A DNA stretch of 61,802 nucleotides, from NCBI GenBank assembly GCA_029561955.1, contig JAKQWO010000037.1:1-61802 (forward strand), read 5' to 3'. Source of the DNA: Candidatus Cloacimonadota bacterium. Its GTDB lineage: Bacteria; Cloacimonadota; Cloacimonadia; Cloacimonadales; Cloacimonadaceae. Each line of letters opens with the position of its first letter. Position 1 is the first letter of the stretch. Positions 4,301-50,653 of this stretch are shown piece after piece. The notes below the pieces were generated by a model. The model was not told the DNA's origin, searched no databases, and was given only the letters and a program-made list of their open reading frames with translations. The position numbers and the translations under genes were made by a program.

Positions 4301-5748
4301 TAGGCCAGCCGATCCATGTGGCGATCCAGGCAATTTCCACCATGAAGCAGCAGCTGTTGATTGACGATATTTCCGGGCCGGACATCGTGTCTGATCCTCC
4401 CTCAACACCTACATTGAGTTATCCTGCAAATGCCGCTTCCATGCTGCCCTTGCATCCTTTTTTGGTTTGGAATCCCACTTCAGGTTCCGTCCCTACCGGC
4501 TATAAGCTCTATTGTGATACCTACAATCCACCCACCACAGAAGTGGCTGATTTGACCACAAACAGCTACAGCTTCCCCGCTCCACTCGAGCCCGGAACAA
4601 CCTATTACTGGACGGTAAAAGCCTATAATGACTGGGGTGCGAGCGATGCGTCTCCAGCCTTCAGCTTCACCATCTCGCCCGCCGGTATAGTGACTATCGG
4701 CACCGGAATCAACTCTTACTTATATCCATTCTGCATGCACCGCGGCTACATGCAGTCTGCATCTTTATACACGGCGGATCAGATCAACCAAGTCCCCGGA
4801 ACGATCAACTTCATCGGCTGGGATTGCACCTCCACCGCCGTAATTTCTGTCCCCTACAAAATATACCTCAAAAACACCACGCTCACCGAGATCCCGGAAG
4901 AGACCTGGGGCAATTTCAGTACGGGCTTGTTCCTGGTCAAGGAAGGCTCATATTTCTTTGGATCCCCGGGGTGGCACACACTCACCTTCGATACTCCCTT
5001 CCAGTATACCGGCGGCAACCTGATCGTTGTCGTGGCAACCACTTATGGATATGAAGGTCATCCCAACATGAAGCAATTCAGATATACCTCAGCTCCTGGA
5101 ATGCACGGAAGCTGGGGTTCCAACTACGGGGTAAGTGACCAGCAGGTCTGTACCGTGAGCGCATACCGTCCCAATGTCATGCTGGGCTTTTTGGACGATA
5201 TTGGCATCATTACTGGAACCGTAACCGATGCCGACAATCAACCTCTGTCTGGAGTGTGGGTAACCCTTGAAGAGATTCAGCTTACGACAAGCACCAATGC
5301 AGGCGGATACTATCAGATGCGCAATATCCCCGCCGGTAACTATACCCTGTCCTTCAGCAAACGGAACTACCAAACCCAATCCCAACCCGTGACTATGGTG
5401 GCGGGTGGTAAGCTGCTGATAGACGTAAATATGGGGAATGTGAGCAACGACGAGCACACCCAGCCCGTGATCGCTACTGCTCTCAATGGCAATTACCCCA
5501 ATCCCTTCAACCCCGAAACCACCATCAGCTACAGCGTCAATAAACCCGGAAGAGTGAAACTGGAAGTGTATAACATCAAGGGTCAATTGGTGCGAACCTT
5601 GATCGACGCAGACCACATATCCGGCCAATACAAACAGGTCTTCAATGCCAGAGACAACCGTGGAAATGCTGTTGCCAGCGGTGTTTATCTGCTGAGGATG
5701 GTTGCTCCCGGATATCAGAAGACCTCCAAAATGATCCTGATGCAATAA
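1393..5748 (+). CDS. Giant secreted adhesin-like protein with T9SS sorting domain
   Basis: A 1451-aa protein with a clear signal peptide (residues 1-23). The order of modules seen is: a beta-rich domain (25-200), fibronectin III (about 206-295), a beta-rich domain (300-470), and an ASPM/SPD-2/Hydin-like Ig module (about 473-570). There follow a cleaved-adhesin/choice-of-anchor-J domain (577-735), a second Ig module (740-845), a second choice-of-anchor-J domain (849-1000), fibronectin III (1005-1095), a second copy of the 300-470 domain (1098-1270), a carboxypeptidase-regulatory-like module (1272-1345) and the T9SS sorting domain (1350-1451). The DDWLISP motif marks both anchor-J domains. No enzyme active site was seen. 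The likely role is surface adhesion or substrate binding outside the cell (inference). The start has a GGGAGAG ribosome-binding site. It is a tandem paralogue of the preceding gene. Confidence 0.9.
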   Translation: MKTTLRIMLLALLLATLGFVHAITVQVGENAGRTYGLPTTSYYKYNYSQQIYTQAEIGAVGAISKIRFFYMTGTVSNNTIWTVYLGHTQRSAFANSNAWEPIANLTQVFEGDVADMFPVTVNNWIEIAFDTPFNYNNTDNLIVAVYQYIPEVAPYNSTEWGKHSSGARRGLYCHNDNFISPHYENPPLAGYWAEDISSIQFVFPDLQAPLAPQLTAPATHANVVNGQSLRWAMPAGSADTSGYDLYINGNLVGDNLRVPYYRLNDLEPGTYNWYVVAHNNAGISVPSDTKTFTMNTGTTVGDGKAIHNYPFVIAANNNTCCLSLYTLGEIGHFGNITHLGWNIHTPSTRAVTYQVYAKHTYDTSQTLRKWYDFESTATLIAQGTKIFSTPGWYQISLNTPISYTQGNLLIGVKVFPGTAGHDVPFFFQSPCTAGLNQVWHRYSGPPGSTGYMNEVRPNIMMRIVPLSPDPMLVIDPPAWNIGSTVINTTQTQTFNIVNAGCGTYTLTGISPRVDGFFSVIDAPSLPVNLNPGHPSSFTVRYAPTAAGQHTATFTLTDGSSTTDLVVSADCADHTISSFPHLENFDGEWTGTPAAPEGWTVINADNDSFAWRQGSHNVQPAYSAPFYAYGTGCEDDWLISPPIDLSGVNVRVKWWDALHRYDWQYSYKVLLSTTSPYIESFTTELADISCNNILWTEHALSLHEYTGQTIYLAFHIYNCLSESTVFGIDNFLLEELPPAPVFTHSPNSLIFGACFVDSMTDYQDVTITNTGFGNLVLPLTNVSLIGADASMFLLDPSNFPLIIAPYQSSTIPICYYPSSEGVHSATLRMVYNGENHDVELSGIGLGPYALFESFEDTLFPPAGWAMHDGGSRTYWHRSLSKPKTGIAHAMIRYDYTAHDDWLISPRLLPTASNHRFNFYATNWHRAGDDRFNILVSTTDAELASFTDTLAANVSTSKLEYMFHSFDLSEFIGQPIHVAIQAISTMKQQLLIDDISGPDIVSDPPSTPTLSYPANAASMLPLHPFLVWNPTSGSVPTGYKLYCDTYNPPTTEVADLTTNSYSFPAPLEPGTTYYWTVKAYNDWGASDASPAFSFTISPAGIVTIGTGINSYLYPFCMHRGYMQSASLYTADQINQVPGTINFIGWDCTSTAVISVPYKIYLKNTTLTEIPEETWGNFSTGLFLVKEGSYFFGSPGWHTLTFDTPFQYTGGNLIVVVATTYGYEGHPNMKQFRYTSAPGMHGSWGSNYGVSDQQVCTVSAYRPNVMLGFLDDIGIITGTVTDADNQPLSGVWVTLEEIQLTTSTNAGGYYQMRNIPAGNYTLSFSKRNYQTQSQPVTMVAGGKLLIDVNMGNVSNDEHTQPVIATALNGNYPNPFNPETTISYSVNKPGRVKLEVYNIKGQLVRTLIDADHISGQYKQVFNARDNRGNAVASGVYLLRMVAPGYQKTSKMILMQ

Positions 5749-41433: not shown

Positions 41434-41611
41434 CGGATTTGTCCCCCTACGGAATCCTCATGACAGGTCCCGATAATATGGATCGTATTTTGCATAGCTC
41501 GTCACTCCTTTGATTGAGTCTACCATGTTGATTATAGCCACTCTTTCTATCTGGATAAATTAGTCAAGCACTTTCGAGCAGTTAAGACCAGATAATACAG
41601 TAGTGTGGTAT

Positions 41612-41631
41612 GGTCGCTTGCCAAAGCGACC
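41612..41631. repeat. REP-like palindrome, GGTCGCT stem
   Basis: GGTCGCT-TGCCAA-AGCGACC: perfect 7-bp arms around a 6-nt centre. Confidence 0.75.
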
Positions 41632-41643
41632 AACTCTGTAGCC

Positions 41644-41661
41644 GGCGGTCGCCGAACCGCC
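41644..41661. repeat. REP-like palindrome, GGCGGT stem
   Basis: GGCGGT-CGCCGA-ACCGCC: perfect arms around a 6-nt centre. Confidence 0.75.
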
Positions 41662-41820
41662 GCAATCAAGCGCAGCTTGATACTTACATCGGCGTGGCGA
41701 GTTTTACTCTCAGTGGTGAGTTGTGAGCCGCTGTGCTGGGTGATGAGGATAGGAGAGATTTGTGGTTTAGCTGGCTGTGTTTATGGGGTTGGGTTGTGGA
41801 AGCAGGCGGGGCCTGCTGGC

Positions 41821-41838
41821 GGCGCTACGGCGAGCGCC
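41821..41838. repeat. REP-like palindrome, GGCGCT stem
   Basis: GGCGCT-ACGGCG-AGCGCC: perfect arms around a 6-nt centre. Confidence 0.75.
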
Positions 41839-41848
41839 GGCTACCTTT

Positions 41849-41870
41849 GGGTCGCTACGGCGAGCGACCC
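41849..41870. repeat. REP-like palindrome, GGGTCGCT stem
   Basis: GGGTCGCT-ACGGCG-AGCGACCC: perfect 8-bp arms with the same centre as the palindrome 11 nt to its left. Confidence 0.75.
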
Positions 41871-41878
41871 TACTTCTT

Positions 41879-41963
41879 CCTTGCTTAGCCGCCCGGTGAT
41901 TACCCGGCGCCTCCCGGGAAAATCCCGAGTATCGCCGAGGCATCGCCCTGCGGGTAAGTAAGG
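41879..41963. repeat. 85-bp structured repeat, copy 2
   Basis: It differs from the copy at 47652 at very few bases. Nested inverted repeats run from CCTTGCTTA to TAAGTAAGG. Confidence 0.85.
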
Positions 41964-42312: not shown

Positions 42313-43415
42313 GTGAAAAAGCTACTCTTACTTTTGATCTTAGTGGTCATCTTCAGTTGTTCCGTAAATATTGCTGAAGAAAGTCGGGGTGTCAGTCATG
42401 GCATCTCAAACACGGTTGAATTTAGTACCGGTGACGCTCCCGCAGTCACCAATGTTCGTGCTGTCCAGCGGGCAGATGGGTCTGGGAAGGTGGATATTTT
42501 CTACAGCTTGTCAAACTTAACCGGTGATCCAATGACTGTTAAGCTGGTGGCTTCCAACGACGATGGTAAGACATGGGGCATCCATTGCAACACCGTTTCC
42601 CAAGACGTGGGCATGGGTGTCAACCCCGGAGCTGAAAAACACATTATTTGGGATGCGGCAGCCGATTATCCAAACATCTCCCGTGCCAGTCTCAAGTTCA
42701 AGGTAATCGCCCATGAAGGCAACATCCAGCCTATTCTGGAAGAATTTGTCTATGTCAGTGGCGGGAGATTATGGGTTCCATCCCTTATACAGATTATGGA
42801 CTGGGTAGCAATTACCCCGTTTACCAGGTTTCCTGGTATGCCATCTTGAAATACTGCAACCTGCGCAGCTTGGCGGAGGGACTTACTCCGGTATACACGA
42901 TCGGTGGTAGCACCAATCCTGACAAGTGGGGCCCCATCCCTGCCTCCAGCGATACTTCTTGGGATGCAGTGACCTGCAACTGGGAGGCTGACGGCTACAG
43001 GTTGCCCACCGAAGCAGAATGGGAATTCGCAGCTCGGGGAGGAAATATGAGCAAAGGTTACCTGTATTCCGGCTCCAACGATTGGGACTCCGTAGCCTGG
43101 AACAATGCCAATCGCAACCAAGGCGTGCACAAAGTAGGCTCCAAAGCTGCCAACGAACTGGGCATTTACGACATGAGCGGCAACGTCTGGGAATGGTGCT
43201 GGGATTGGAGTGATCACTTATATTATGGCAACAGCCCGCAGGATAATCCTACTGGTCCGGAGAGCGGTTCCTACCGTGTGAATCGTGGCGGTGGCTGGCA
43301 CCACGATTCAAATAACTGCTGCAGTGTAGCTAACCGTGGTAACTACGTTCCGTACCTCATCCCGTACATCAGTCCCGTCAACCTCGGGTTTCGCCTCTGC
43401 AGGACTGCGAAATGA
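42313..43415 (+). pseudogene. Broken FGE-domain lipoprotein gene (frameshift and deletion)
   Basis: The first frame (42313-42849) encodes a lipoprotein signal (lipobox FSCS, Cys16) and an Ig-like domain often found before FGE domains, up to EEFVYVSGG. The FGE/SUMF1-like domain then continues in another frame (42771-43415). Compared with the intact paralogue at 43582, the GGSFMMGS segment has lost one or two bases, and about 35-40 codons (the part with QVTVSSFWIGKYEVTQAEF) are missing. The rest of the FGE domain is intact up to GFRLCR. The gene is probably inactive, unless the second frame is translated from its own ATG at 42771. It carries a variable-looking block at 43299-43385. It is 166 nt upstream of the caspase-FGE gene. 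Confidence 0.8.
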
Positions 43416-43581: not shown

Positions 43582-45180
43582 ATGAAGAAACACACTATCG
43601 CTATTCTTTTGCTTTTCTTGATAGTCGCAGCCTATGGGGCGCGCAAAGCCTTGGTGATCGGCAATGCCGATTACACCGTTGCGGCTTTGAGCAATCCCGT
43701 AAATGATGTCATGGCGGTGGAAAAGCTGCTGAAAGGGCTGGGATTTGAGACCACTCTGCGAGTGAATCTGAATAGACGCGACATGGAGCAGGCTATTGAC
43801 AGTTTTGCCGCTTTCCTGCATCCGGTTGATGAGGTCGTGTTCTACTACAGCGGTCACGGAGCTCAGGTGGAGGGCTCAAATTATCTCATTCCTGTGGGCG
43901 AGGTGATGAATAGTGAGGAGGATATAAAGTATGACAGTGTGAATGCCAACAAAGTCACGGACAAGCTTTCTCGGGCTTCAGTTTCAATCGTAGTGCTGGA
44001 CGCCTGTCGTAACAATCCTTTCAGCGATGCGAGAAGCGGTAGCAGGGGTTTGGCCTTGATGCGCAGCAAAGGTAGCCAGTTCATCATTTACAGCACAGCC
44101 GATGGCGAAATCGCAGAAGATGGCGGCCCCTCCGGACTCAGTCCCTTTACCGAGGCTTTTGTCCGACATGCCGGAACACCTGAGCTGTCCATTGATGATG
44201 TGATGTATTTGGTCAAAGAAGATTTAAAACGCTCCACAAACAACAAACAAAAGCCCTACACCTACAACGGCATGGAGCAGCGATATTATCTGGCTCGGGC
44301 GGATGGCTCGACCCCCAAATATACCTCACCCAGACCCTCTACTTACACTCCCCCGCCAGCTACGCAGGTTTATACTCCGCCACCAGCTCCCAATGGCATG
44401 GTTTACGTCGGCGGCGGCAGCTTTATGATGGGCTCAAATGACGGAGACGAAGACGAGCAACCGGTGCATCAGGTGACGGTATCGTCTTTCTGGATCGGTA
44501 AATACGAAGTTACCCAAGCGGAGTTTTCTCAGTATATGCAACCAGGGAAGGCTTGGGCAGAAGATTATGGCATTGGGGATAACTATCCCGCCTATCATGT
44601 CTCTTGGTACGCCATCATCAAATACTGCAACTTGCGCAGCTTGACAGAGGGGCTGACTCCCGTCTACAGCATCGCTGGCTCTACCAATCCCGCCCTTTGG
44701 GGTTCTGTTCCAACCTCCGATGATGAAACTTGGAATGCGGTTATCTGCAACTGGGACGCCAATGGTTACAGACTGCCAACTGAGGCAGAATGGGAATTTG
44801 CCGCTCGGGGAGGAACCAACAACCCGAATTATCTTTACAGCGGCTCGGACGATATAAATGCTGTGGCGTGGCATGATAATAATTCCTCAGGCAGCAGCCA
44901 ACCAGTCGGTGCCAAAGCAACCAACGGCATTGGAATTTTCGATATGAGTGGTAACCTCTGGGAATGGTGCTGGGACTGGTATTCAGACGCCTACTACAGC
45001 AGCAGCACCCCGAATAACCCTGCCGGCCCGAACGTCGGCAACTATCGTGTATTGCGTGGCGGAAGCTGGTCTTATGATGCTACAGGGTGCCGTGTGTCCT
45101 GCCGCAACTACGACCGCGCATCCAGCGTCGACGTCTACTTCAGCGACTTTGGCTTCCGGCTCTGCAGGGCTATCAAGTGA
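43582..45180 (+). CDS. Secreted caspase-like (C14) peptidase fused to FGE/C-type-lectin domain
   Basis: A 532-aa exported protein. It has a signal peptide (1-20) and a caspase/metacaspase p20-like domain (about 21-235) with His92 in YYSGHGA and Cys142 in LDACRNN, the expected catalytic pair. A proline-rich linker (about 250-270, TPPPA-type repeats) is followed by an FGE/SUMF1-like domain (about 272-532) with the motifs MVYVGGGSFMMGS, RLPTEAEWEFAARGG, GNLWEWCWDW, RVLRGGSW and GFRLCRA. In true formylglycine-generating enzymes the fold oxidises a sulfatase Cys; in many bacterial fusions it serves only as a C-type-lectin-like binding module (family knowledge). The C-terminal block 45070-45150 is variable between paralogues. 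A protease triggered by ligand binding through the lectin-like domain is the likely logic (inference). Confidence 0.9.
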   Translation: MKKHTIAILLLFLIVAAYGARKALVIGNADYTVAALSNPVNDVMAVEKLLKGLGFETTLRVNLNRRDMEQAIDSFAAFLHPVDEVVFYYSGHGAQVEGSNYLIPVGEVMNSEEDIKYDSVNANKVTDKLSRASVSIVVLDACRNNPFSDARSGSRGLALMRSKGSQFIIYSTADGEIAEDGGPSGLSPFTEAFVRHAGTPELSIDDVMYLVKEDLKRSTNNKQKPYTYNGMEQRYYLARADGSTPKYTSPRPSTYTPPPATQVYTPPPAPNGMVYVGGGSFMMGSNDGDEDEQPVHQVTVSSFWIGKYEVTQAEFSQYMQPGKAWAEDYGIGDNYPAYHVSWYAIIKYCNLRSLTEGLTPVYSIAGSTNPALWGSVPTSDDETWNAVICNWDANGYRLPTEAEWEFAARGGTNNPNYLYSGSDDINAVAWHDNNSSGSSQPVGAKATNGIGIFDMSGNLWEWCWDWYSDAYYSSSTPNNPAGPNVGNYRVLRGGSWSYDATGCRVSCRNYDRASSVDVYFSDFGFRLCRAIK

Positions 45181-45261
45181 TTGATCCTTTACCTTTGAGA
45201 CTGCCGACGTAGTCGCAAATTGGGTTTAAGCCGGTTTATGCCATCCAAAAGCAACCGGTTA

Positions 45262-45280
45262 TTATCAATTCACATGATAA
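45262..45280. promoter_or_regulatory. Inverted repeat TTATCA-N7-TGATAA, candidate operator
   Basis: It has the same arms and spacing as the site before ferritin (11891-11909). It lies 31 nt before the start of the DUF4384-type gene. Confidence 0.4.
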
Positions 45281-45311
45281 AGTCAATAGAACACTTTCTA
45301 AGGAGTGAATT

Positions 45312-46691
45312 ATGAAGAAGATAGCGTGGCTCTTATTGATGCTTTGCCTGTCGGGAGTGCTACTCGCCTCCCCATTGAAGGCCATAGGTTATGGCGACAC
45401 CGCAGAAAGTGCCCGCAGTGATGCTCTGGCCAACTTGTCCATCCAGTTGTATGTGCGGGTTGATGCCAAGGTATCAGACCTGCTTATGGAGGAGAATTAC
45501 GAGGTCTTCCAAAGGACGGTCAAGGAAGTGACCACCTCCAGCAATCTGCCCATCCTGGGTGTGGATTACCATGAGGAGAAGCATACCAAAAAGGAGTATC
45601 GGGCTACCGCGATGTTGGAACCCCAGCGGGCTCTGCCTCTGTACAGTCAAAAACTGAGTGCTCTGCACGACCGCTTGGTGGAAGCGAGCGTATATCTGGA
45701 AGCCTCCGGAGATGAGTCCTTACGCTTTCAAAAGCTGCTGCTGGCCAGGCAGGACTTGGAGGAATTTGACATCTACCGCTTTATCTACCTCGCCTTGGGT
45801 GGGAAGGCTAATATCTCTGCTCCCATCACGGTACAAGCACTGGATGAGGCTCTGCACGAGCTGACCTCGGTGTTTTCTGATCTGGATTTGGGGCTGAGAC
45901 TGAACGTGAAGGAATTTGCAGCATACGAGAATATCCATGTGTTCTACCCTTCTGTCTATCCCTCAGATGAGACCACAGAGTTTGCCCGTGCGGTGCACTA
46001 TCGCCTGCAGGGGCTGGTATCGAGCTGTGAGAGTCCGCAAAATGCCTCCTGGTTTCTCCGCTCATCTTATGAAATCCAAGCCGACAGGATAGACCTGCAT
46101 CTGCGGCTTGTCGACAAACAAGGTTCCGCAGTCAAATCCGCCCAGATCAGCTTTAGCCCTCAGGCTTACCAAAGCTATGAATACGAGCCACGCACCATGG
46201 ATTTGGCCAAGCTGATGGACATGGGTGAACTGGTCTCCAACAAGTTGAACATCAAGCTGCGGGGTTCCAACGGCACAAGCCAGCTTTACTTTACCGAAGG
46301 CCAAACAGTGCAACTGGAGATCAAGGCCAACCTCCCCTGCGAATACTACATCGTCGTTCACACCAATACTGCTTGGGGTGTCTATTCCTATGTAATGGAA
46401 ATGAGTAGAGGAAATCCGGTTGGCAGGATCAGTGCTGATCAATGCAATCGCTGGGTGCAGTTGCCGGAACTTGAAGTTAAAGCACCCTTTGGCGTGGAAA
46501 CCCTGCATGTGATCGCTTCCACCGGCAGCCTGCAAGGGTCAATTCCTCCTCACCGAAGGGATGATTACGATCTACTGCGCATCTCAGACAATCCCCTTGA
46601 TGCTGTAGCCCTTACCCGTGGCCTGGCTCTGGCACAGAAGGAAGTAGAGACCACCGAGGCAAACCTGACGCTTACAACCTCCAAGCGGTAA
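45312..46691 (+). CDS. LPP20/DUF4384-like exported protein next to caspase-FGE
   Basis: A 459-aa exported protein with a signal peptide (1-19). The N-terminal part (about 20-115) resembles LPP20-type domains (AIGYGDTAESARSDALANLS, then repeated EYRATAMLE). The C-terminal part (about 317-425) fits the DUF4384 pattern (YFTEGQTVQLEIKANLPCEYYIVVH, with a late VETLHVIAS segment). DUF4384 proteins are frequent partners of caspase-domain proteins in bacteria (recalled family knowledge). It follows the caspase-FGE gene by 131 nt with its own AAGGAG and an inverted repeat upstream, so it is probably in the same functional unit. No enzymatic motif was seen. Confidence 0.75.
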   Translation: MKKIAWLLLMLCLSGVLLASPLKAIGYGDTAESARSDALANLSIQLYVRVDAKVSDLLMEENYEVFQRTVKEVTTSSNLPILGVDYHEEKHTKKEYRATAMLEPQRALPLYSQKLSALHDRLVEASVYLEASGDESLRFQKLLLARQDLEEFDIYRFIYLALGGKANISAPITVQALDEALHELTSVFSDLDLGLRLNVKEFAAYENIHVFYPSVYPSDETTEFARAVHYRLQGLVSSCESPQNASWFLRSSYEIQADRIDLHLRLVDKQGSAVKSAQISFSPQAYQSYEYEPRTMDLAKLMDMGELVSNKLNIKLRGSNGTSQLYFTEGQTVQLEIKANLPCEYYIVVHTNTAWGVYSYVMEMSRGNPVGRISADQCNRWVQLPELEVKAPFGVETLHVIASTGSLQGSIPPHRRDDYDLLRISDNPLDAVALTRGLALAQKEVETTEANLTLTTSKR

Positions 46692-46754: not shown

Positions 46755-47276
46755 ATGTTTACAGAGGACCTCAGTGATCTGGATGGCGGCAGCACCAATC
46801 CAGAGAGTTGGGGTGCCGTTCCTACTTCTGCTAACGCTACTTGGAACGCCGTCACCTGCAATTGGAGTGCCAACGGCTACCAACTGCCCATCGAAGCGGA
46901 ATGGGAGTTTGCTGCCCGGGGTGGAAAAATGAGCCAGGGCTATAAGTATTCCGGTTCCAACGACCTCGGCTCTGTGGCTTGGTACGGTGACAATTCCGGC
47001 AACAAGACTCACGTAGTAGGGACCAAATCCGCCAACGAGCTGGGCGTCTACGACATGACCGGCAACGTCTCGGAATGGTGCTGGGACTGGTATTCCGAAT
47101 ACAGCAGCAGCCCACAGGATAATCCTACCTGGCCTAACAAAGGTAGTTATCGTCTGCTGCGTGGCGGTAGCTGGTACGACGGTGCTACTTACTGCCGTGT
47201 GTCTGTCCGTTACGTCGTCAATCCGTACTACAGCTACTCCGACTACGGTTTTCGCCTTTGCAGGGCTATAAACTGA
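46755..47276 (+). pseudogene. 5'-truncated FGE-domain remnant
   Basis: This encodes only the last ~170 residues of an FGE domain. The first recognisable homology is DLDGGSTNPESWGAVP, matching the middle of the domain in the genes at 42313 and 43582. IEAEWEFAARGG, GNVSEWCWDW, RLLRGGSW and GFRLCRAIN follow. There is no signal peptide, no N-terminal half and no convincing ribosome-binding site before the ATG at 46755. It starts 63 nt after the DUF4384-type gene. It is likely a duplication remnant. A variable-looking block lies at 47175-47246 with 22 of 24 codons ending in C or T, so it could also serve as a sequence donor. Confidence 0.8.
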
Positions 47277-47354: not shown

Positions 47355-47387
47355 ATCTACAAAACTATCTCACAGCCCCGCATGTAT

Positions 47388-47407
47388 GGTCGCTCGCCGA
47401 AGCGACC
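47388..47407. repeat. REP-like palindrome, GGTCGCT stem
   Basis: GGTCGCT-CGCCGA-AGCGACC: perfect arms. The counterpart of 41612, with a changed centre. Confidence 0.75.
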
Positions 47408-47419
47408 AACTCTGTAGCC

Positions 47420-47437
47420 GGCGGTCGCTGAACCGCC
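47420..47437. repeat. REP-like palindrome, GGCGGT stem
   Basis: GGCGGT-CGCTGA-ACCGCC: the counterpart of 41644. Confidence 0.75.
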
Positions 47438-47596
47438 GCAATCAAGCGCAGCTTGATGCCTACAGCGGCGTGGCGAGTTTTGCTCGCAGTTGTGAGTTGT
47501 GAGCCGCTGCGCTGTGGGATGAGGATGGGAGAGATTTGTGGTGTAGCTGACTGTGTTTATGGGGTTGGGTTGTGGAAGCAGGCGGGGCCTGCTGGC

Positions 47597-47614
47597 GGCG
47601 CTACGGCGAGCGCC
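47597..47614. repeat. REP-like palindrome, GGCGCT stem
   Basis: GGCGCT-ACGGCG-AGCGCC: the counterpart of 41821. Confidence 0.75.
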
Positions 47615-47651
47615 GGCTACCTTCGGTGCGCAGCGAGCAACCCTGCCTCTT

Positions 47652-47736
47652 CCTTGCTTCGCCGCCCGGTGATTACCCGGCGCCTCCCGGGAAAATCCCG
47701 AGTATCGCCGAGGCATCGCCCTGCGGGTAAGTAAGG
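47652..47736. repeat. 85-bp structured repeat, copy 3
   Basis: Nearly the same as copy 2 (41879-41963). Confidence 0.85.
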
Positions 47737-48145: not shown

Positions 48146-50653
48146 TTATTGTGAGGCGAGTATTTCTTTCAAGATAGCGATGGCGTGGGCTTTTGCTCCG
48201 GAGCCGTTCTCAGCCACAGGGCCCACGCAGGAGGGGCAGCCCTCGTCACAGGGGCATCTTTCCACCAGATTGAGGGCGTCTTTGAGGATGGTATCCTGCA
48301 GGTCGTAGAGGCGGCGAGCCAGGCCAATGCCGCCGGGGGTGGTATCGTAGATGGCGATCATGGGGTTGAGGTCGGTGTGTGAGGAGCGTTCCTGGAAGAT
48401 GACGTCGAGGTCGCGGCGGTCGCACATCACATAAAAGGGGGCGAGGTTCACGATCAGAAAGGCCAGGCCGGCGAGACCGCTTTGGATCTTCACCTGCTGT
48501 TCGGCAAGTCTATGGCAGCGAGGGCAGAGGGTGATCAGATTGTCCGGCTGGTTTGCCTCTTGGGCACTTGCGAAGGTTCTGAAAGGTTTGATGTGATGCA
48601 CGGCGAAGCTCTCCTGATCCTGGCTGGCACCGCAGTGTTGACACCGGAATTTATCGCGCTCTTTGATCTGCTGTGATAGCTTGGGCCAAGCTGGGCCGTA
48701 GTCGTTGATCTCGTTGCGCCAGAGCCCCATTTCTTGCACCTTGTGCACCACCTGGGCGGAGATACTGAACCACCAGGCTTGGGTGTGCAAGATGGAGGGC
48801 GGCAGGTTCAAATCTTCGCAGCCCAAAAGCTCCATAGTGATGTATCTCAGTCTTTTATAGGCAGTTACGATGCTGGTGACCTTGACGTTGCCAAAGTATT
48901 TCTTGGTCTTTTCCGTGCTGCTGGCGCGTAGAACGCTCAGGATGTCCATGTCCGATGACTGGATGGCTTGGGTGTAATAGTTTGCATCCGTTGGGCTTAC
49001 CCTCACGACTCCTGCCTCAAGATCGAGGCTGTTTACCAGGTAGCTATCGCCCTGATCGAGGTAGATGGCACCGGGGTGGGTCATCCAGTTTGCGCTGGCG
49101 ACGTCCACCGTGCCGATCATCTCCTCAGCGTGCATGATGCTGAGATTGTGGCCGATATTGCGCAAAGAGACCTCGCCGGCGGGATAGGCGTCCAGTTTAC
49201 CGATCCAGCGGTCTTGATACTTGCGGATGTGGTCATCTTGCTCAAGGAGAATGAGATGGGGGAGGATGTGTTCGGGGCCAAGGCTGCCAAAGCCTTCGTC
49301 TTCATGCAGGGAGAGCTCATGAACGGCGCACAGGAGCTGCGCTTTGAGGATTTCCGAGTGGTCGGGATCGATGAGAGCTTCCTCAGGATTGTTGTCAAAA
49401 AGATAGTCGGGATGCTGGCAGATGTATTGATCCAAAGGGTTGGAGGAAGCCACCAGGATGCCCAAGGATTTTTTGCCCTTGCGTCCCGCTCTGCCTGCTT
49501 GCTGACGTGTGGCGGAAATGGTGCCCGGATATGAGTTTATAAACACAGCATCGAGGCCACCGATGTCTATGCCCAGCTCCAAGGCGTTGGTGCTGATCAC
49601 TAAGGACAGTTTGCCCTCGCGCAAGTCCTGTTCTATCTTTCTGCGCTCTGCGGGCAGATAACCGCTGCGGTAGCTGCTGGCCTTGTCTTTGAAGGCCGGA
49701 TTATCGGTCAGATAGCGGTAGAGCATCTCCACGCTGCGGCGGCTGGAGCTGAAGAGTAAGGCCTGTCCGCCGGTATTGATCCACTTTTTGGCGATTCTGA
49801 TGCTTTCCACCATGCTGCTGCGGCGGATGCCCAAAGCTGTATTGACCACGGGCGGGTTAAAGATGCAAAAGAGCTGCTCACCGCGGGGTGAAGCGTCTTT
49901 ATCTATCAGTTTGACAGGCTCTTCCACGAGATTTGAAGCGAGGCTGAGGGCATTGGCCACCGTGGCTGAGGTGCAGATGAATTGCGGCTTGGAGCCGTAG
50001 AGGGCGCAGATGCGCTTGAGCCTGCGGATCACATTGGCAAAATGGGAGCCGAAAACGCCGCGGTAGATGTGAACTTCGTCGATCACCACGTGCGTAAGAC
50101 CGGCAAAGAAGCTGCTCCAGAGGCTGTGATTGGTCAAAATGCCGGCGTGCAGCATATCGGGATTGGAAAAGATACTGCGGGCTTTGGCTCTGATCTGGCT
50201 GCGTGCCGAGGAAGGCGTGTCTCCATCGTAGGTGGCGCAGCTCAGTTTGGTAAATTCACGCGCATCCCGGCTGAGTTCAAAGAGGAAGTTGTGAAGTTTA
50301 TGCTGTTGGTCACGGGCTAAAGCCTTGGTGGGGAAGAGGAGCAGGGCGCGGGCTTTGGGGTTGGTGATCTGGCTTTGGATGATGGGAACCTGATAGCAGA
50401 GGCTTTTGCCGCTGGCTACCTGAGTGCTGATCACTAAATGCCGGCCTGCCAAACTGGCCTGGATGGCCTCAGCCTGATGTTCGTAAGGCTGGTCAATGCC
50501 CAAAGAGCGCAGGCTCTGGATCAAGGCGGGAGCCAAGCCCTCCGGCCAAGCGGCAAAGCTGGCTTCACGAGCCTCAAGCTGCTGCTGCGCTACGATGTTT
50601 TGGGAGAGCTGCTCATCGCTATAGAGCTGCTGGATAAAGCGGTCTACGGCCAT
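48146..50653 (-). CDS. MrfA/Hrq1-type DEAH-family DNA helicase with embedded HNH domain
   Basis: An 835-aa superfamily 2 helicase. Motif I is VASGKS at 79-84, motif II DEVH at 192-195, motif III CTSAT, and motif VI QQAGRAGRKG. The C-terminal DUF1998/MZB region ends with the four-cysteine cluster CPCDEGCPSC. Helicases of this type (YprA/MrfA, Hrq1) unwind 3'-5' and act in repair of cross-linked or bulky DNA damage (family knowledge). Inside the MZB region sits an HNH-endonuclease-like module (about 663-720) with C671xxC674, H686-H687 and a later CPRCH. The ATG lies 6 nt after the upstream secreted-protein gene, so it is probably cotranscribed with it and the ComEA-like gene. Confidence 0.88.
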   Translation of the reverse strand: MAVDRFIQQLYSDEQLSQNIVAQQQLEAREASFAAWPEGLAPALIQSLRSLGIDQPYEHQAEAIQASLAGRHLVISTQVASGKSLCYQVPIIQSQITNPKARALLLFPTKALARDQQHKLHNFLFELSRDAREFTKLSCATYDGDTPSSARSQIRAKARSIFSNPDMLHAGILTNHSLWSSFFAGLTHVVIDEVHIYRGVFGSHFANVIRRLKRICALYGSKPQFICTSATVANALSLASNLVEEPVKLIDKDASPRGEQLFCIFNPPVVNTALGIRRSSMVESIRIAKKWINTGGQALLFSSSRRSVEMLYRYLTDNPAFKDKASSYRSGYLPAERRKIEQDLREGKLSLVISTNALELGIDIGGLDAVFINSYPGTISATRQQAGRAGRKGKKSLGILVASSNPLDQYICQHPDYLFDNNPEEALIDPDHSEILKAQLLCAVHELSLHEDEGFGSLGPEHILPHLILLEQDDHIRKYQDRWIGKLDAYPAGEVSLRNIGHNLSIMHAEEMIGTVDVASANWMTHPGAIYLDQGDSYLVNSLDLEAGVVRVSPTDANYYTQAIQSSDMDILSVLRASSTEKTKKYFGNVKVTSIVTAYKRLRYITMELLGCEDLNLPPSILHTQAWWFSISAQVVHKVQEMGLWRNEINDYGPAWPKLSQQIKERDKFRCQHCGASQDQESFAVHHIKPFRTFASAQEANQPDNLITLCPRCHRLAEQQVKIQSGLAGLAFLIVNLAPFYVMCDRRDLDVIFQERSSHTDLNPMIAIYDTTPGGIGLARRLYDLQDTILKDALNLVERCPCDEGCPSCVGPVAENGSGAKAHAIAILKEILASQ

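Follow-up and report, generated by a model that had tools for sequence, protein, structure and literature searches.

An exported caspase-FGE protein and its conserved LPP20/DUF4384-like partner in Cloacimonadota, a candidate recognition-and-cleavage module of the cell envelope

What would a caspase, exported from the cytoplasm together with a lectin-like domain, recognize, and what would it cleave? This question is raised by two adjacent genes in a 61,802-nucleotide stretch of DNA (the window) from a Candidatus Cloacimonadota bacterium. A first-pass annotation had read the first gene as a fusion of a signal peptide, a caspase-like domain, a proline-rich spacer and a lectin-fold FGE domain with a variable-looking tip, followed by an exported LPP20/DUF4384-type protein, and had suggested a conflict or self-recognition module acting outside the cytoplasm.

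ORF and Pfam analyses agree with this gene architecture, the signal peptide and the spacer being assigned by eye. The caspase-FGE protein (532 aa; 43582..45180, forward strand, as are the partner gene and the two broken FGE genes beside the pair; PF00656 and PF03781) starts with a putative signal peptide without a lipobox (aa 1-20; 43582..43641), followed by a caspase (C14, p20) domain (43642..44274), a Pro-rich linker which is poorly conserved in the homolog alignment (aa about 237-268; 44290..44385) and an FGE-type C-type-lectin domain identified by Pfam and by comparison with PDB sequences (44392..45165). The partner gene (459 aa; 45312..46691) is transcribed in the same direction after a gap of 131 bp, and both ORFs are intact. 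An FGE lipoprotein gene with a broken reading frame is located upstream (42313..43415; ORFs 42313-42849 and 42771-43415) and a 5'-truncated FGE remnant downstream (46755..47276). In the neighbourhood Pfam further identified an ABC transporter, an MrfA-like helicase and a protein with a T9SS tail; no vWA, MoxR, STAND or EAD gene was found among the neighbours of the pair. A cytoplasmic ternary conflict system was ruled out, since no signature genes are located near the pair. The MrfA/HRQ1-like DEAD helicase (48146-50653) carries an HNH nuclease domain (aa 671-716) before the MrfA zinc-binding domain, a combination that looks unusual.

The Peptidase_C14 match covers aa 21-231 (PF00656, E 4e-34). 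Alignment of 12 homologs showed that the proposed catalytic residues, H92 and C142, form an invariant dyad in the p20 domain, which places the protein among the orthocaspases (C14 proteins with p20 but no p10); C142 is the only cysteine of the caspase domain. The caspase site is thus complete, and the idea of a ligand-triggered protease system survives on this point. Residues D42 and D140 are also invariant in the 12 homologs and align with the acidic residues D365 and D462 of MALT1. Since these acidic S1-type residues match those of MALT1, cleavage after Arg or Lys is predicted for the window caspase. The predicted structure of the caspase-FGE protein was good for the caspase half only (overall pLDDT 62, tip below 50). 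A PADLOC match named 'caspase' (37 bits) spans only the generic caspase domain and was discarded as a sign of a defence system.

The FGE-sulfatase match extends from aa 271 to 528 (PF03781, E 4e-53). Alignment to true FGEs showed that the first active-site cysteine is replaced by tyrosine while the second is retained; formylglycine-generating catalysis was ruled out, the first cysteine being missing. DGR proteins of this C-type-lectin/FGE-type fold are thought unlikely to work as FGE enzymes (PMC6328139). The best PDB match of the domain, ahead of all true FGEs, was the DGR variable protein TvpA (2y3c, E 2e-39).

The variable-looking tip corresponds by homology to the regions that vary under DGR control in genes of the sister species. 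When aligned to the template of G033, a genome of the same genus, the tip (45050..45172) differs at 22 of 38 adenines and at 20 of 79 other positions (25%; p=7e-4) and contains a 6-nt insertion. The tip is thus adenine-biased but older than the footprints described below. This frequency of non-adenine mismatches, together with the insertion, indicates that the tip is not currently rewritten by a G033-like template. The tip ends in CTCTGCAGGGCTAT, as do the variable regions of G033, and the end of the template, CTCTGCAATGCTAA, is different. IMH and IMH* differ likewise in known DGRs. The end of the window tip is IMH-like and appears to have been retained. Clear footprints of the same template were found in the downstream FGE remnant (mismatches at 25/42 adenines and 8/79 other positions, p=1e-8) and in an FGE gene on contig C1 of the window genome (18/37 and 7/77, p=5e-6), and the upstream broken gene has a variable-region-like end (p=0.015). 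The footprint on contig C1 implies that DGR influence in this genome was wider than the window. Contig C1 also encodes a second exported caspase (caspase-PEGA, 784 aa; L082:5536-7890, G000:C1), which adjoins a separate FGE gene (4382-5608) with a clear footprint at its end.

Neither a DGR reverse transcriptase (RT) nor a template was found in the window-genome assembly by RT and template searches. The only RT of the genome is part of a Cas6-RT-Cas1-like fusion of 834 aa, whose domains were named by eye (L018, G000:C34:14015-16979). An active DGR was ruled out for the present assembly, in which several FGE genes are located near contig ends and a gap is possible. To judge from its sequence, the tip resembles a variable region which was once diversified and has since degraded; we read it as frozen, and its former DGR as either lost or unassembled. 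The two broken FGE genes flanking the pair and the lack of a DGR could also be taken as signs of a decaying relic, in which a DGR-less caspase-FGE protein persists without current function. We consider this very improbable: both genes are intact, the catalytic residues are conserved and, in the comparison with G033, dN fell far short of dS for both domains of the caspase-FGE protein and for the partner.

In G033 an RT is located in the same cluster as a homologous caspase-FGE/partner pair. A scan for repeats differing at template adenines placed the template at L065:2763-2895 and revealed three caspase-FGE genes with a variable region at the 3' end; one of these genes adjoins a partner 86% identical to that of the window. 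Avd was confirmed by NCBIfam and Pfam, and the DGR is complete (RT, Avd and template repeat, TR). The scan itself limits non-adenine mismatches, so the targets were re-tested with unconstrained local alignments. These gave mismatches at 16/43 adenines and 2/82 other positions, 18/41 and 6/81, and 21/44 and 3/85 (p between 4e-6 and 3e-9), and an FGE segment lying beyond the variable region showed no adenine bias (p=0.48). The core of the template, RGGSWNNNATNCRVANRNNNNPYKGNNNNVGFRLC, contains 13 AAY codons. A second genome of the genus, G032, has all three DGR components (RT, Avd and TR), and here too a caspase-FGE gene is a target (mismatches at 16/34 adenines and 2/83 other positions, p=1e-8). 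In the G033 target at L065:4370-6214 a 1-nt gap inside the variable region alters the C-terminus, through a DGR error, a mutation or an assembly fault. The recognition part of the suggested conflict or self-recognition module gains support from these same-genus DGRs. The FGE-bearing conflict proteins known from the literature belong to systems with vWA, MoxR or STAND components, which are absent from the window locus.

RT, Avd, TR and target were found together on the same fetched contig in eleven genomes of the family; in two more, RT and Avd were present and no target was found on the fetched contig. Most DGR targets of the family are caspase-free FGE proteins, which indicates that diversification does not require the caspase. 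Complete DGRs are present in nine further genomes of this family (L171, L172, L174-L180) (Avd, RT and template) with exported, caspase-free FGE targets, and several of them share a 146-aa ORF beside Avd (MYRLxLVRFDRD...). The prevalence of exported caspase-free targets in these genomes speaks for a diversified adhesin or receptor with a housekeeping protease, in which the tip would bind surfaces or other cells and the caspase would only mature or shed its own protein or the partner, with no triggered response. For the exported FGE-type DGR proteins of Treponema, a role in contacts with other organisms has been suggested (PMC4891356). We regard this explanation as rather unlikely for the window pair, in view of the association of the partner with proteases described below.

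The partner did not reach the curated cut-off for DUF4384 (E 0.1; 13.2 bits against 27), and a relative of the partner also scored under the cut-offs for both DUF4384 (1e-3; 19.3 of 27 bits) and LPP20 (3e-3; 18.5 of 25.9 bits). Its predicted model (pLDDT 73) matched the secreted Helicobacter pylori protein HP1454 (E 1.7e-7) and, weakly, LpoB; because of the fold match to HP1454 the protein is still called LPP20-like. Of the label given in the first-pass annotation, export agrees with a putative signal peptide recognized by eye, which has no lipobox cysteine, and the DUF4384 assignment is weak. No T9SS tail was found by Pfam on either protein and, as neither has a lipobox, the periplasm is the default location of the pair. 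The by-eye signal peptides agree with action outside the cytoplasm, though not necessarily outside the cell.

A profile search for the partner in 125 genomes of the phylum found it in about 20, either at full length or at the edge of a contig. In 15 of the 18 loci with enough context, a caspase or CHAT protease was encoded within two genes of the partner, as tallied by eye from inspection of the neighbourhoods, with the copies of G119 and G076 counted once each across two contigs. The linked loci are those of the window, G033, G018, G049, G089, G114 (C161), G071, G076, G101 (two loci), G120, G119, G108, G094 and G091. The protease directly adjoins the partner in 11 of them, and small ORFs lie in between in G089, G114, G119 and G108. 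No such protease was found within two genes in G116, G011 and G008; four partner loci cut by contig ends (G114:C181, G095, G122 and G010) are outside the 18. Since the whole 2.1-Mb window genome contains three caspase domains, chance linkage is not realistic, and the association of the two genes holds across Cloacimonadota, as the idea of a functional pair called for. A scan of contigs with a single peptide pattern returned nine Cloacimonadota/Cloacimonetes records and one titled Armatimonadota.

The architectures encoded at the partner loci are caspase-FGE, caspase-PEGA with a separate FGE gene, WD40-caspase, Big_7-caspase and TPR-CHAT. What recurs is the pairing of the partner with a clan-CD protease, not a pairing with FGE. 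That the partner pairs with proteases of differing architecture, some of them FGE-free, suggests that the protease is central, which speaks against a mere adhesin. The same variety of WD40-, PEGA-, Big_7- and TPR-linked caspase or CHAT proteases implies that FGE is exchangeable, as in an envelope quality-control or stress protease that would sense a conserved envelope signal through its LPP20/LpoB-like partner and use FGE as an exchangeable protein-binding module. The resemblance of the partner model to HP1454, and weakly to LpoB, is in line with such a function. This explanation is unlikely in our judgement, as it accounts neither for the DGR rewriting of caspase-FGE tips in G033 and G032 nor for the threefold faster divergence of caspase-FGE compared with the partner.

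We favour, with a probability of about one half, a reading of the pair as a protease module which is exported to the cell envelope and has an LPP20/DUF4384-like protein as partner. The FGE-type C-type-lectin domain would be the recognition part of the orthocaspase; in this lineage a DGR would retune its tip, now or formerly, the variable region of the window genome being frozen. Ligand binding by the tip would bring tethered caspases together or release them via the Pro-rich linker, and the activated caspase would cleave after Arg or Lys, with the LPP20/DUF4384-like protein acting as a constant partner, be it regulator, anchor or substrate. The computed support consists of the domain make-up, the intact dyad, the MALT1-like acidic S1-type residues, the linkage in 15 of 18 loci, the likeness to TvpA, the DGR targeting of sister genes in G033 and G032 and the IMH-like end. 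From these we infer ligand-triggered proteolysis by the pair, and with it ligand binding, activation, substrate, location and a purpose in envelope defence or in the recognition of neighbours. Against the module stand the missing RT and template of a DGR in this genome, the degraded tip, the mostly caspase-free targets of the family and the poor model of the FGE half.

Both domain pairings have precedents, and caspase-FGE proteins are common. FGE occurs in 33 of 671 prokaryotic metacaspases (PMC3501461), and 39 cyanobacterial orthocaspases carry FGE and 23 carry DUF4384 (PMC8283722). In these metacaspase-FGE and orthocaspase-DUF4384 proteins the domains are fused, whereas here the DUF4384-like protein and the caspase are encoded by separate adjoining genes, and the sister genes are targets of a DGR. 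The DGR variable proteins of cyanobacteria (Vallota-Eastman 2020, PMC7517822) likewise combine an orthocaspase with a diversified C-terminal C-type-lectin domain; as far as the available part of that report goes, they are mostly predicted to be cytosolic, with secretion also reported, and an LPP20/DUF4384-like partner is not mentioned, whereas the Cloacimonadota pair is exported and has this partner, and the DGR of the window genome is lost or absent. TvpA of Treponema denticola and its kin (PMC4891356; PDB 2y3c) share the exported FGE-type domain, TvpA being the closest solved relative in sequence, and in Treponema too target genes are left in strains without a core DGR. The solved TvpA is a single-domain protein without a protease, and the Treponema proteins are lipoproteins, unlike either member of the window pair. 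FGE/CLec sensors and caspase effectors also occur in VMAP/iSTAND ternary and STAND conflict systems (PMC7159879, PMC10907252), which share this sensor-effector logic and are sometimes DGR-diversified; the window locus differs in having no vWA, MoxR, STAND or EAD gene nearby and in the export of the whole unit.

Orthocaspases diversified by DGRs were already known from cyanobacteria, and so were exported DGR proteins of the FGE type from Treponema. What appears to be new is the combination of export, a DGR-targeted caspase-FGE protein and an LPP20/DUF4384 partner that is conserved. It was not found described in the freely available main texts searched; the one DGR paper among them that names Cloacimonadota pools the phylum with others, and its main text makes no mention of caspases. 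Such a combination suggests that the cell envelope holds a tunable device for recognition and cleavage. It links a hypermutation engine with exported caspases and bears on the roles both of DGR-diversified proteins in free-living bacteria and of bacterial caspases. As a unit of two exported proteins, one of them a constant partner, it is open to direct purification and testing, and it gives the uncharacterised LPP20/DUF4384-like family its first consistent gene context, with clan-CD proteases of several architectures as neighbours.

Between the window genome and G033, dS was 0.50 for the neighbouring helicase and 0.41 for a 376-aa gene. The partner gave a similar value (0.43), and caspase-FGE, at 1.32, is three times more diverged than the partner. 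With dS at the genomic baseline, the partner looks vertically inherited; the caspase-FGE gene beside it was probably exchanged, or is a deep paralog. The two flanks of the window block are close neighbours on G033:C15; the block itself is not there, and the ABC transporter is truncated. The cluster of G033 is located on C7, the corresponding site of the window genome (C29) being without it. The module occupies different sites in the two species, which may stem from transposition, repeat-mediated recombination or differential loss. A more far-reaching version of the module reading, which we hold tentatively and with well under even confidence, is a retunable exported receptor-protease system, in which a DGR rewrites the tips of several caspase-FGE proteins, the partner is their common regulator or substrate, and changing foreign or self envelope ligands trigger proteolysis; caspase-FGE genes would be exchanged beside a vertically inherited partner while the module relocates.

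Copies of a dispersed repeat lie at the edges of the block in both species, one of them next to the DGR cluster of G033. In the window the two flanking copies (41608..41963 and 47384..47736) are 93% identical. Repeat search gave 66 matches of this family in the window genome, with a core of about 100 nt which is partly self-complementary and occurs on both strands. The number of matches argues against the flanking 350-nt repeats being the ends of a specific mobile element; the repeat is possibly a MITE- or REP-like element. Small ORFs located between the caspase and partner genes in several relatives (L070, L071 and L129) have N-termini resembling those of REP-type transposases.
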